NCBI RefSeq assembly: GCF_001701025.1
Contig: NZ_CP016793.1
Span: 7,006,001 to 7,070,000 of the forward strand
Reading direction: 5' to 3'
Source: Lentzea guizhouensis
GTDB taxonomy: Bacteria; Actinomycetota; Actinomycetes; Mycobacteriales; Pseudonocardiaceae
Length of the DNA: 64,000 bases
Every line of letters begins with the position of its first letter. Position 1 is the first letter of the stretch. A program made the position numbers and the translations under genes. The notes under the pieces were generated by a model, which saw only the letters and a list, made by a program, of their open reading frames with translations, had not been told where the DNA came from and did not search any database. This document shows positions 13,466 to 18,581 of the stretch, one piece after another.

Positions 13466-13987
13466 TCACAGGAGTGCCAGGAACTCCGCCCGCGTGCGTT
13501 CGATGCGGGTCCCCAGCTCGAGCACCGGCGGGCTCGTGCCGCCGGAGAGCTCTGCGCGGGCGACCGTGCGCGCTTCCTCGAACTGGGTGCGCAGCAACGT
13601 CCGCAGCCGCTGGTCGAACTCGCTGCCCCGGGAGTCGCCGATCGACGCCAGCTCGGCGGCCGTGATCATGCCGGGCATGTCGTGGCCGTCGTGCAGGTCG
13701 GTCTCCTGCCGGCCGGCCCGGGTGAGCAGCTCCCGTGCCCTGGCCAGCTCGGTCCGGTAGCCGGTCACGACCTGGTCCGTGACCGGGCGCAGCGCGGAGT
13801 CCTCGCGGCGCCCGGCCAGCTCCAGCACGGCGAGCGCCGACTCGTTCTGCGGGATCACCAGCTCCAGGAACGCGAGGTCGGTGGCGGTCGGCCCGGCCTG
13901 CGGGACAGGGGGCTCGGCGACTGGAGCGCCGCAGGCCGTGAGCAGGACCGCTGTGAGCGGGACCGCCGCGAGGAGGAGCGTTCGCAC
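13466..13987 (-). CDS. DUF305 lipoprotein with atypical metal-site residues
   Basis: 173 residues: a signal with lipobox LLTAC, then a four-helix DUF305 domain. Most DUF305 proteins carry an HH pair in the first helix (M-HHxxA-MA); here the place reads VIPQNESALAVLELA, so both His are gone, while the later GHDMPGM motif is kept. DUF305 proteins are often linked to copper. The GTG start overlaps the DUF1996 stop (TAGTG), so the two are coupled. Last gene of the sigma-GH128 operon. Confidence 0.8.
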   Translation of the reverse strand: MRTLLLAAVPLTAVLLTACGAPVAEPPVPQAGPTATDLAFLELVIPQNESALAVLELAGRREDSALRPVTDQVVTGYRTELARARELLTRAGRQETDLHDGHDMPGMITAAELASIGDSRGSEFDQRLRTLLRTQFEEARTVARAELSGGTSPPVLELGTRIERTRAEFLALL

Positions 13988-15107: not shown

Positions 15108-16937
15108 TCAGCCCGCGTCGCGGTAGGCCTCGCCGGCCTGGTTCGGGGTGCCGCCGGGGGCGTAGAGGCCGGTGCCGGGCTTGTCGGCGGGCAGCGCGAA
15201 CCAGGCGTAGCGCTCCAGGTAGGGCAGGCCCTCCATCATCACGGCGGACCCGCGGGCGAACGCCGCGAGCTGGGCCTGGGTGGGGTAGCGCGGCGTGCCG
15301 GTGGAGAAGTCGATGAGCGAGTACTCGGTGAGCCACACCGGTTTGCCGTACCGGGCGTGGACCGCGTCGAGGTAGTTCTTCAGGTGCCCGACGGCCGCCG
15401 CGCTGAAGTCGGAGCCGTACCAGTGCACGGTGATGAAGTCGACGCGCAGGTTCCGTTGCGCCGCACCGGTCATGAACCGGTCGAGCCAGCCGCCCGGCTT
15501 GTCACCGCTGTGCGCGACGGCGGGGCTGCCGAGCCGCAGCCCGGTCGCGGCGAGCTTGGGCCACAGGTCGAGCGCCTGCTCGGGCGTCATGTTGGCCTGG
15601 TCGGGGAAGTCGGGCTCGTTGAACCCGAGCAGCACCTTGCCGTTGGCCTTGGCGCGGGCGATGGTCGCGTCGTCGGTGAACTTCGCGCCCCAGATCATCG
15701 GTACGAACTCGACGTTCGGCGGCGTGGGGACGCCGTCGGGGTGCACGGCCCAGTTGTAGTACCAGCTCGCCCGCACGTCGGTGAGCGCCTTGCCGACCCC
15801 GGTGAAGTTCCAGGTGCTGACGCCCTTCTTCGCCGACGCCGTGACGGTCTTGGCCGGCGGTGGAGGAGGCGGGGCGGCGACGGTCGTGGTGGTCGTCGGG
15901 GGTGCGGTGGAGGACGAGACCTCGCTCGTGGTGGGAGGCGTCGTGGTCGGGGTCTGCGAGGTGGTGGCGGAGATCGGCTGGGCGAGCGGCTCCTCCCGTC
16001 CGGGCAGGACGGCGACCACGATGCCGGCGGCGACCACCGCGGCTGCCGCGGCGGCGATGGGCTTCACCAGCGCGCCCTGCAGGAACACGCTGAACTTGCC
16101 GGTCGTGACCGGGGCCGCGGTCGCCTGGGAGATGCTGACCTGCGTCCCGATGAGCGCGGGCTGGTCCACCGTGAACAGGGCGGGCAGCGGCACGAGCGGC
16201 AGCCGGGCGATGAGCCCTTCGACCGCGGCGAGGTCGTACCCGCACCGCTCACACCTGGCGCAGCTGCGACTGTGCCGGGCGATCCGCTTGCGCCACAACG
16301 GACTCGGGTCACCGTCCCAGTCCGCGATCACCGCTGCCAGCTCGGGACAGCGCGGCTGGCGTTCCAACGTCCGCACCACGATCCGCGCGGCATCGAGCTG
16401 GGCCTTGACGCGTTGGACGCGCACTGCCGTGTGCTGCGGGGTCAGCTCGAGTGCGTCCGCGACCTCCGTGCGGGTCAGCCGCCCAGCCGCCTCCAACCAC
16501 CACAACGACAACAGCTCGCGCTCGTCCGCGCTCAACCACCGCGTGGCCGCGACGACCTCCCGCCGCTGCCCCGACAGCTGCAACCGCATGATGGTGAGGT
16601 CGACGAAGTCCGCACCGGGATCGGCCAGGTCCTCCAGCACCTCCCCGGTCACCGGCACCCGCTGCCGTTCCCGGTGCCGCAACCGGATCTGGTTCATCGC
16701 GATCACGACCAGCCACGACCGGAACCCGGCCGGATCACGCAACGACGACAAGCCGTGCACCGCCCGCAACATGGTCTCCTGGACCACGTCATCGGTGTCC
16801 GCGTGCCCACCGAGCGCGTGCCCCACGATGTTGTAGACCAGCGGCAGGTACCCGCTCACCAGGTCGTCCAACGCCCGCTGGTCGCCATCCCGCGCGGCCA
16901 CCACCGTCGCGACGCCGGGTTCCTCGGCCACCGCCAT
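15108..16937 (-). CDS. ECF sigma factor fused to a membrane helix and extracellular GH128 glucanase domain
   Basis: 609 residues. Sigma region 2 at about 24-90 (DTDDVVQETMLRAVHGL, GFRSWLVVIAMNQIRLRHR), sigma region 4 at 135-185 (LSADERELLSL, RTEVADALELTPQHTAVRVQRV), a His/Cys cluster (H222, C226, C229, C232) like an anti-sigma zinc finger, one membrane helix at 293-311, a Thr/Pro linker at 322-362, and a GH128 (Asl1-like endo-beta-1,3-glucanase) domain at 370-609 with likely acid/base E441 (GFNEPD) and nucleophile E538 (VWLTEYS). Start ATG 16937 has a GAGGTGGG ribosome site. The layout predicts a cytoplasmic transcription factor physically tied to a cell-surface glucan enzyme. Leads an operon with DUF1996 and DUF305. 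Confidence 0.88.
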   Translation of the reverse strand: MAVAEEPGVATVVAARDGDQRALDDLVSGYLPLVYNIVGHALGGHADTDDVVQETMLRAVHGLSSLRDPAGFRSWLVVIAMNQIRLRHRERQRVPVTGEVLEDLADPGADFVDLTIMRLQLSGQRREVVAATRWLSADERELLSLWWLEAAGRLTRTEVADALELTPQHTAVRVQRVKAQLDAARIVVRTLERQPRCPELAAVIADWDGDPSPLWRKRIARHSRSCARCERCGYDLAAVEGLIARLPLVPLPALFTVDQPALIGTQVSISQATAAPVTTGKFSVFLQGALVKPIAAAAAAVVAAGIVVAVLPGREEPLAQPISATTSQTPTTTPPTTSEVSSSTAPPTTTTTVAAPPPPPPAKTVTASAKKGVSTWNFTGVGKALTDVRASWYYNWAVHPDGVPTPPNVEFVPMIWGAKFTDDATIARAKANGKVLLGFNEPDFPDQANMTPEQALDLWPKLAATGLRLGSPAVAHSGDKPGGWLDRFMTGAAQRNLRVDFITVHWYGSDFSAAAVGHLKNYLDAVHARYGKPVWLTEYSLIDFSTGTPRYPTQAQLAAFARGSAVMMEGLPYLERYAWFALPADKPGTGLYAPGGTPNQAGEAYRDAG

Positions 16938-17504
16938 GCCCACCTCACTTGCCGGTCCAGGGTCCTCTGACCAGGAGATGTCCTGGGGAGCCGGCGATAA
17001 CGGAAAAACTTCGGCGACTTTTCCGGGCGCTCGGTGGGGGCCGGGCTCGGGGTGCCGACGGGCCACCCTACGGGGCGCGGCGGGGGTGGTGAAGGGGGCG
17101 CGGGCGCGGTGCGGGCGCCGTGAGGGTGCTGCGACGGGTTCGGCGGGCTGGTGCTGAAACGCCCACCTGCGCCGCCGTGCCGCTCCGCCGTGCCGCCCTC
17201 CCGACCGTGCCCGGCCGCCCTGTGCGGTCCAGCCGCGCAGCCCAACCGTGCGGTCCAGCCGCGCCGCCCTTCCGTGCCACCCAGCCGCGTGCCTGCTGGG
17301 CCCAGGCCTCCCACCGCGTTACGATCCCCCCGGCGAGTTCCACGCCCAACCTCCTGACCGGGTGCCCACGCCGCCCGGCGTCGCGGAGGCAAAGGGGACC
17401 TGCGTGCCTCGGGACGTCGTCTTCGTCATGCCTGGACCAAGGCTGTCGTGGCATCTGGGTGCGTGGGGTTCGGGTGTCTGTGGCGACGGCCGAGGAGTTT
17501 GGTG
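16938..17504. other. 567-bp intergenic region with inverted and direct repeats
   Basis: The region between the sigma-GH128 and BtrH-like genes, which diverge. It holds a 7-bp inverted repeat (CGGAAAA at 17001-17007 and TTTTCCG at 17019-17025) about 65 bp before the sigma gene, and a 17-bp direct repeat (GTGCGGTCCAGCCGCGC at 17222-17238 and 17248-17264) in a C-rich, low-complexity stretch. Several frames are open there but none shows ribosome sites or recognisable protein, so I call no gene. Confidence 0.5.
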
Positions 17505-18581
17505 ATGACGTCACGCAAGCAGCTCAAAGCCCAGGTCCGCGCCCGCATGGCCAAGACCGGTGAGCGCTACACCACCGCGCTGGGCCACCTCACCGGTGCG
17601 TCGGCGGTAGGCGGGTGGACGTTGCGCGGGGGCACGGATCCCGATGCGGCCGGGCTGACCGCGATGCTCGCCGCGAAGGACATCGGCAACCTGACCGAGG
17701 CGCTCGTGTTCGGCATCGGTGGTGGGATCGGCGCGGGCTACATCCTGTGGGAGTTCAAGCACGACAACGGCCGGCACGTCACGATCGGCTTCACCAACTC
17801 GTGGCAGTACGTCACCCGCCGCACCGAGAAGGTGCTGACCCGGCTCGGCATCAAGGCCGAGTGGCACCGATCAGCACCCAAAGCCGCGCAGAGGTGGCTG
17901 ACGGACCGGCTCGGCACCGGTGACGCCGTCATGGTGTGGCCCGACCGCTACCAGATCGGCTACTGGGACCTGCCCGAGGCCCTCGACGGGCACGGCGGGC
18001 ACCCGGTCGTGGTCTACGCGACCGCGGGCGATCAGGTGTACCTGGACGACCGCAACCTCACGCCGCTGACGGTCGCCCGCGAGGACCTGGACCGGGCCGT
18101 GGCGCGGGTCGGCAGCTGGAAGAACCAGGCGCTGGTGATCACCGACGAGAACCGCGAGCCCGATGTCGAGCGAGCGGTCCGCGAAGGGTTGCGGGACGTC
18201 GTCGAGCACCTGTCGCAGAAGTCCGACTCGTTCTCGTTGCCCGCGTGGCGCAAGTGGGCGCGGATGATGACCGACGAGAAGGCCGCCAAGGGGTGGCCGA
18301 AGGTGTTCGCCGACGGGCAGGGGCTCGACCTCGCGTTGCAGAGCGTGCGGGAGGGGGTGGACGGGCGGTTCGGGGTCACCGGCGGGAACCTGCGGCCGTT
18401 GTTCGCCGACTTCCTGGAGCAGGCCGGGCACTCCGGGCAGGCGCCGCGGTGGCGGGAGATCGGCGAGATGTGGCACGCGTTCGGGGAGATGACCGAGTTC
18501 GCGGACATGGGCAAGCAGCTCACCGAGCTGCACGAGGCCGAGACCGACGCGATCGCCAAGCTCAAGGCGGTTGTGGACTGA
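17505..18581 (+). CDS. BtrH-N/DUF4872-type protein lacking cysteine
   Basis: 358 residues. A basic 28-residue leader (TSRKQLKAQVRARMAKTGER) precedes a BtrH N-terminal-like papain-fold domain (LTEALVFGIGGGIGAGYILWEF, GGHPVVVYATAGDQVYLDD) and a helical DUF4872-like half. BtrH transfers an acyl group from a carrier protein in butirosin synthesis; family members have a Cys/His/Asp set. Here His and Asp are recognisable but the whole protein contains no Cys, so the usual chemistry should be absent. ATG start follows GAGGAG. A Cys-containing paralog lies at 28985-29974. Confidence 0.72.
   Translation: MTSRKQLKAQVRARMAKTGERYTTALGHLTGASAVGGWTLRGGTDPDAAGLTAMLAAKDIGNLTEALVFGIGGGIGAGYILWEFKHDNGRHVTIGFTNSWQYVTRRTEKVLTRLGIKAEWHRSAPKAAQRWLTDRLGTGDAVMVWPDRYQIGYWDLPEALDGHGGHPVVVYATAGDQVYLDDRNLTPLTVAREDLDRAVARVGSWKNQALVITDENREPDVERAVREGLRDVVEHLSQKSDSFSLPAWRKWARMMTDEKAAKGWPKVFADGQGLDLALQSVREGVDGRFGVTGGNLRPLFADFLEQAGHSGQAPRWREIGEMWHAFGEMTEFADMGKQLTELHEAETDAIAKLKAVVD

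Follow-up and report, generated by a model that had tools for sequence, protein, structure and literature searches.

ECF sigma factors of the groups ECF52 and ECF53 are described, in passages of a review, as carrying fused zinc-finger anti-sigma regions and one or two membrane helices, and proteolytic release of the membrane-held sigma factor is expected there for ECF48, ECF52 and ECF53 (PMC8999054). Published ECF52 and ECF53 members include some whose catalytic domains are predicted to be glycosyl hydrolases, with no validation given there (PMC10766802). ECF52 is stated to be exclusive to Actinobacteria, and its studied member, SCO4117, is said in sections of the same paper to be phosphorylated and to modulate development even when truncated to its sigma part (PMC5826349). 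Regulated proteolysis has been characterised for IutY (ECF243) of Pseudomonas putida, in which an anti-sigma segment bound to the membrane is fused to the sigma factor (passages of PMC8999054). In Clostridium thermocellum, the outer part of the anti-sigma factor RsgI6 is a GH10 domain which, according to excerpts of its description, has very low activity but still binds (PMC4711584). RseP of this organism is reported to cut RsgI within the membrane helix, after which ClpXP, by recognising XAA sites, degrades the released part (PMC12203970).

The window analysed here, a 64,000-nucleotide stretch of Lentzea guizhouensis DNA, contains a single minus-strand frame of 609 codons in which ECF sigma regions 2 and 4, a His/Cys cluster, one membrane helix and a GH128 domain follow one another (Table 1). 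This layout, read from the letters alone in an earlier note, was confirmed by Pfam, TIGR02937, motif and hydropathy analyses. The ATG was chosen as the start over an upstream GTG at 17066 because the GTG would place the promoter-like motif of the gene within its coding sequence, and because aligning the window with 11 relatives showed conservation of the bases surrounding the ATG.

Table 1. Features of the fusion gene and its neighborhood, in window positions
Feature	Position	Strand	Basis or remark
ECF sigma factor-ZAS-type segment-TM-GH128 fusion gene	15108..16937	(-)	609 aa + stop; ATG at 16937
Sigma region 2 (residues 26-93)	16659..16862	(-)	Pfam PF04542 Sigma70_r2, E 1.4e-13
Sigma region 4 (residues about 125-182)	16392..16565	(-)	TIGR02937 cover and model helices; limits by eye
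Hx3Cx2C cluster (residues 222-229), anti-sigma zinc-finger type	16251..16274	(-)	motif
Single membrane helix (residues about 292-312)	16002..16064	(-)	hydropathy; model pLDDT <50
Pro/Thr/Ser-rich linker (residues 311-366)	15840..16007	(-)	sequence
Predicted GH128 subgroup I domain (residues 367-609)	15111..15839	(-)	PF11790 and fold match
Codon of E441	15615..15617	(-)
Codon of E538	15324..15326	(-)
Promoter-like motif GTTATC-N16-ATCTCC of the sigma gene	16974..17001	(-)	presumed autoregulatory; 36 bases ahead of ATG
Secreted DUF1996 protein, 352 aa	13987..15045	(-)	PF09362; 62 bases downstream of sigma gene
DUF305 putative lipoprotein	13466..13987	(-)	PF03713; start overlaps DUF1996 stop by 1 base

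The NCBIfam model TIGR02937 (sigma70-ECF) spans residues 22-181 (E 5.8e-22), and it was through this model and the model helices that region 4 was seen, no Pfam match above the cut-off having been obtained there. Given that the Pfam scan found no zinc-finger domain, the ZAS-type anti-sigma segment was assigned by the Hx3Cx2C motif only. This motif is present in 81/81 family proteins (L001-L081, of which L080 is the window's own), and H222, C226 and C229 were invariant in all 25 proteins compared; the cluster would be expected to bind zinc. The hydrophobic stretch at residues 294-312 has a Kyte-Doolittle mean of 2.53 over 19 residues. A stretch of at least 1.37 was found past the Hx3Cx2C region in 78 of the 81 proteins, the other three (L052, L063 and L065) having none within the scanned span, and the best hydrophobic window lay directly after the cluster instead in 17/81. 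The outer part matched Glyco_hydro_cc (PF11790) at residues 389-605 (E 1.6e-50). An AlphaFold model of the whole protein (mean pLDDT 75.6, pTM 0.45) was confident over most of the sigma and glycoside hydrolase parts but not over residues 251-365, and is therefore uninformative on the relative placement of the two ends.

With sigma regions 2 and 4, a zinc-finger type anti-sigma segment, a membrane helix, a Pro-rich stretch and an outer carbohydrate-related domain, here a hydrolase, the fusion resembles ECF52 and ECF53, and all titles among the best 79 of 527 related loci name actinobacteria, in line with the restriction of these groups. By its sequence it is of the ECF52/ECF53 kind, the two groups being taken together here. 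Since proteins of these groups with predicted hydrolase domains are in print, the architecture belongs to a known kind, and the novelty claimed for architecture and mechanism in the earlier note is not supported in view of the fusions described (PMC8999054 and PMC10766802) and of RsgI6-GH10 (PMC4711584). The fusion nevertheless differs from each described system. SCO4117 has a carbohydrate-binding module where the fusion has a predicted catalytically complete GH128 domain, and the motif given for it in the sections used, CSGYN-17-SRHA (PMC5826349), is unlike the GTTATC-N16-RTCTCC found here. RsgI6 and sigma-I6 share with the fusion an outer glycoside hydrolase, a membrane segment and sigma control inside, as well as, in the excerpts, a sigI6 promoter read by sigma-I6 itself and polysaccharide-degrading targets (PMC4711584). 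By contrast, sigma and anti-sigma are separate proteins in that system, the sigma factor is of another family and the GH10 domain has very low activity. An RsgI-type protein is a separate anti-sigma factor with an RsgI N-terminal domain; the Pfam scan of the fusion protein contained no RsgI domain, and sigma and anti-sigma share one chain. IutY likewise joins a sigma factor to a membrane-bound anti-sigma segment but serves iron-starvation cell-surface signalling with the xenosiderophore aerobactin, and no glycoside hydrolase is described for it in the passages used. Among the open-licence literature matches listed (titles and abstract starts), there was no description of a GH128 sigma factor or of DUF1996 under a sigma factor, nor were the promoter motif, the DUF1996 link or the GH16 target described below seen; one paper among the matches listed contains both "GH128" and "sigma factor" (PMC10061750). 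The architecture is thus not new, and it is the output side, comprising the motif, DUF1996 and GH16, that is the new part.

What the sequences provide is the fusion, an intact predicted active site, a conserved promoter-like motif and its recurrence at candidate targets. The reading we consider probable is that the protein is a one-chain receptor for beta-1,3-glucan whose sigma factor is freed by membrane proteolysis and induces both itself and glucan-related secreted proteins. Inside the cell, the fused Hx3Cx2C segment would keep the sigma factor of the same chain inactive at the membrane; outside, the GH128 domain on its Pro/Thr stalk would engage beta-1,3-glucan of fungal, oomycete or plant callose walls. 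Engagement would trigger proteolytic cleavage, first outside the cell and next in the Ala-rich membrane helix, and the released sigma fragment, free of the anti-sigma part, would drive its own promoter (GTTATC-N16-RTCTCC) and a small set of genes for secreted proteins, namely DUF1996-DUF305 in Lentzea and Umezawaea and a GH16 beta-1,3-glucanase in Actinoplanes. Restraint at the membrane and release by proteolysis are suggested by the protein layout, as reviewed for ECF48, ECF52, ECF53 and IutY, and by analogy the Ala-rich helix may offer XAA-type sites for ClpXP. That beta-1,3-glucan is the signal is suggested by the GH128 domain and, independently, by the GH16 target. The one-protein sensor of the earlier note accordingly stands in its layout, its intact glutamates and its conserved motif, but not in the novelty claimed for its architecture and mechanism.

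The closest structural relative of the outer domain is AmGH128_I, a solved endo-beta-1,3-glucanase of GH128 subgroup I from Amycolatopsis mediterranei. The modelled domain superposed on it with 59% identity, 1.0 A rmsd and a TM-score of 0.98 (over the target), and the best five PDB matches of the model were all AmGH128_I entries of subgroup I (58-59% identity, 1.0-1.2 A). E441 and E538, both named as catalytic in the earlier note, align with the two catalytic glutamates of AmGH128_I and lie 97 residues apart, as do E102 and E199, which carry the mutations in the PDB entries matched. Fold, sequence and glutamate pair thus agree with subgroup I, and on this comparison the outer part of the fusion is a GH128 subgroup I domain with a predicted intact active site. 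E441, E538, N440, H505, W506 and Y507 were present in 37/37 fused domains and in 22/22 free GH128 domains. These 37 came from 31 GH128-type loci, four loci of another genus, the distant L030 and the window itself; the GH128-type loci L035 and L050 were left out.

Whether catalysis takes part in signalling bears on a first alternative, in which the GH128 domain is a ligand-binding module only and its residues persist because they line the -1 subsite. A precedent exists in the very weakly active but binding RsgI6-GH10 (excerpts of PMC4711584), and PDB entries of GH128 subgroup VII are titled oligosaccharide-binding proteins. However, a role in binding only would usually permit loss of the catalytic glutamates in some lineages, and none was seen in the fused or the free domains. 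Sensing by binding only is therefore a doubtful reading, albeit the best placed of the alternatives. Conservation favors a part for catalysis in the signalling of the proposed receptor, whereas the nearly inactive RsgI6-GH10, as excerpted, shows that it need not be required (PMC4711584). In a bolder and equally tentative version of the receptor, the sensor would be a working enzyme: binding or cutting of glucan would start the release of sigma and cutting would end it, such that one protein might detect the glucan, attack it, time the response and switch on further genes for glucan attack (GH16 in Actinoplanes, DUF1996 in Lentzea).

AmGH128_I shares the subgroup I fold and active site with the fusion but is a free secreted enzyme with no sigma part. 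That it might natively be a sigma fusion was ruled out, since the domain matching it at 100% belongs to a frame of 296 codons whose start resembles a signal peptide. Free as well as fused GH128 copies occur in several genomes of the genus of the window; in the window's genome only the fused copy was found. A quick tree of 54 of the 59 GH128 domains is compatible with a single origin of the fused state. With L030 omitted, a branch with support 54 separated the 31 fused rows from the others; with L030 included, the fused label required 2 changes and two Dactylosporangium domains fell among the free ones.

The earlier note had proposed a search for the sigma-TM-GH128 architecture and for a conserved promoter motif ahead of it, and both were found. 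The first returned 4884 protein matches, and both Pfam domains were present in all 120 listed, which argues that the fusion is not a chance product. Named hosts include Lentzea, Umezawaea, Saccharothrix, Actinosynnema, Kutzneria, Dactylosporangium and Actinoplanes. Many Streptomyces genes among the best 79 related loci match the sigma and Hx3Cx2C part only, and in most of the fetched Streptomyces relatives this chassis bears a CAP domain. In a 47-protein alignment (A2), a CAP domain replaced the hydrolase in 42, a distant Glyco_hydro_cc domain was present in 1 and neither domain in 4. The window's genome itself has a CAP-type paralog at G000:C1:8057728 (L081:1087-2628). A third kind of outer domain, as yet unassigned, is borne by L105, a family member in another genome of the genus that also has the motif ahead of it. 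As judged from these sequences, the chassis is constant and outer domains are exchanged. On a tree of the sigma part (54 of 82 rows, 28 near-copies or odd rows having been dropped), outer-domain type was clustered: the GH label required 5 changes and the CAP label 4, compared with shuffled means near 18, on a tree in which several long branches are of unsure place.

A DNA alignment of the window with 11 relatives revealed one conserved block upstream of the sigma gene, from which the motif GTTATC-N16-RTCTCC was read. Between -300 and +150 of the chosen starts, the strict form was present at 67 of 80 related sigma genes, against 0/80 in reversed stretches and 2/80 on the opposite strand; a relaxed form, counted without its own control, was present at 7 more (74/80). 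GH128-type and CAP-type sigma genes share it. At L071 it lies 67 bases past the chosen start, which was probably set too far upstream. It was absent at six of the 80 genes (L026, L030, L062, L073, L075 and L081) and in the four fused loci fetched from another genus (L240-L242 and L244). Since L081 is the CAP-type paralog in the window's genome, this paralog may use another promoter. The 67/80 count is not independent of the discovery of the motif, which was read off part of the same loci, and genome scans are therefore the better test. Within the window there was no other mismatch-free site, and two-mismatch sites were at chance level; the one other strict match in the window's genome, before nuo-like genes, is probably due to chance. 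That the motif would be the element read by this sigma factor is suggested by its position ahead of the sigma gene in different families and by its repeated occurrence at a gene whose presence and absence follow those of the fusion.

This gene encodes the DUF1996 protein that follows the sigma gene in the window. No terminator-like site was found in the 62-base gap between the two, and DUF305 is presumed to be the third gene of the operon. In 24 genomes of the genus, the strict pattern gave 45 matches compared with 17 for the backwards pattern. Fourteen lay at the fusion promoter (11 assigned by sequence; G213, G245 and G272 by coordinates), 9 at a DUF1996 ortholog, 1 at the ECF paralog L105 and 21 elsewhere, the last being close to the control number. 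The DUF1996 ortholog (81-88% identity to the window's) was present in 14/14 genomes with the fusion and in 0/10 without it, where the best DUF1996 matches were 51-67% identical. It follows the sigma gene in 5 of the 14, including the window, and lies elsewhere with a motif of its own in 9; a DUF305 lipoprotein-like gene comes after it in 13 of the 14 loci. Sixteen lesser DUF1996 loci that were fetched contained no motif. DUF1996 also adjoins the sigma gene in 3/3 genomes searched of a second genus, named Umezawaea because the match figures of two of the three loci equal those of Umezawaea L006 and L007; in L006 it starts 98 bases past the sigma gene. Taken together, DUF1996 is presumed from these sequence patterns to be a conserved target of the sigma factor. 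DUF1996 genes fetched from 14 of 17 genomes searched elsewhere in the family lacked the motif, and as far as searched the link appears confined to the two genera.

We know of no activity for DUF1996. The window's protein is 59-88% identical to 40 aligned relatives, and many relatives carry F5/8 type C domains. For its model (mean pLDDT 69.6), the best that the PDB offered was a match at E 0.27, and its sequence-profile matches touch the low-complexity N-terminal part only.

The strict pattern located the sigma promoter in most of 21 further genomes of the family. Among close relatives, it recurred before one gene in L174 and L190 and before another in L183 and L197, which we take, from protein features, to be dxr and coaA, respectively. 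This recurrence may reflect chance or a wider regulon. Since neither gene has a glucan link, recurrence in close kin is weak evidence by itself. A second recurrent match in Saccharothrix-like genomes was rejected as a target, as by eye it seems to lie within a coding gene read the other way, and no further motif target was recognised in these genomes. Free GH128 enzymes were likewise discarded as targets, the stretches fetched around 22 such genes containing no motif.

Scanning of 17 more genomes gave 46 strict matches compared with 7 for the control, and 30 of the 46 were fetched. In Actinoplanes siamensis and Actinoplanes cyaneus, a second site lies 73 and 70 bases, respectively, before a gene for a secreted GH16 protein with a ricin-B-lectin domain, the catalytic part of which matches solved beta-1,3-glucanases and laminarinases. 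A. palleronii also has this site, and A. regularis has a degraded copy; the motif thus stands about 70 bases ahead of the start in three orthologs of at least 90% identity. Among GH16 homologs below 90% identity, it was found in 0 of the 27 other loci fetched (one degraded copy), 26 of the 30 loci fetched (from 35 matches in 12 genomes) having no copy of any kind. The output enzyme in Actinoplanes shares its predicted substrate class with the sensor domain.

This agreement bears on a second alternative, in which the GH128 domain is simply an anchored surface glucanase and the sigma factor answers wall stress, phosphorylation or some such unrelated cue. CAP-type relatives, with a quite different outer domain, share the sigma part, the Hx3Cx2C cluster and the motif, as this alternative would have it, and the phosphorylation reported for SCO4117 (sections of PMC5826349) provides a candidate switch. 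The shared substrate class of outer domain and target in Actinoplanes speaks against an unrelated cue, as does the clustering of outer-domain type on the sigma tree, and we regard it as unlikely. Least probable, and very improbable in our estimation, is a separate secreted GH128 protein, made or shed either alongside the fusion or in its place: free secreted enzymes of the same family exist, native AmGH128_I among them, and the Pro/Thr linker could be cut, but none of the six in-frame GTG codons at residues 240-380 is preceded by a ribosome-binding-like sequence, leaving no sign of the internal start named in the earlier note as a point against the sensor, and the fused state is kept across families.

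If the receptor reading is correct, soil actinomycetes possess a series of modular receptors, with outer domains (GH128, CAP and others) swapped on one chassis, and a link to beta-glucan emerges for DUF1996, which is widespread but of unknown function. The conserved switch site before the fusion's own gene and before likely targets makes the job of the fusion testable, as motif and target genes give a concrete promoter, an inducer to try and outputs.

Several observations stand beside these results. Divergently from the sigma gene, the plus strand encodes a BtrH_N and DUF4872 protein at 17448-18581; its only match within the loci scanned was the window's own locus. In three CAP-type genomes (L258, L272 and L263), a secreted protein of 498 aa has the motif 6 bases ahead of its chosen start, and fetched matches in CAP-type genomes also precede genes for an alginate-lyase-like protein, a further ECF paralog and a protein with a CAP domain. 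In Actinoplanes (L266 and L276), the two halves of the GH16 motif are separated by an inverted repeat (GGGTTCCGGAACCC), which might be a repressor site that overlaps the promoter.
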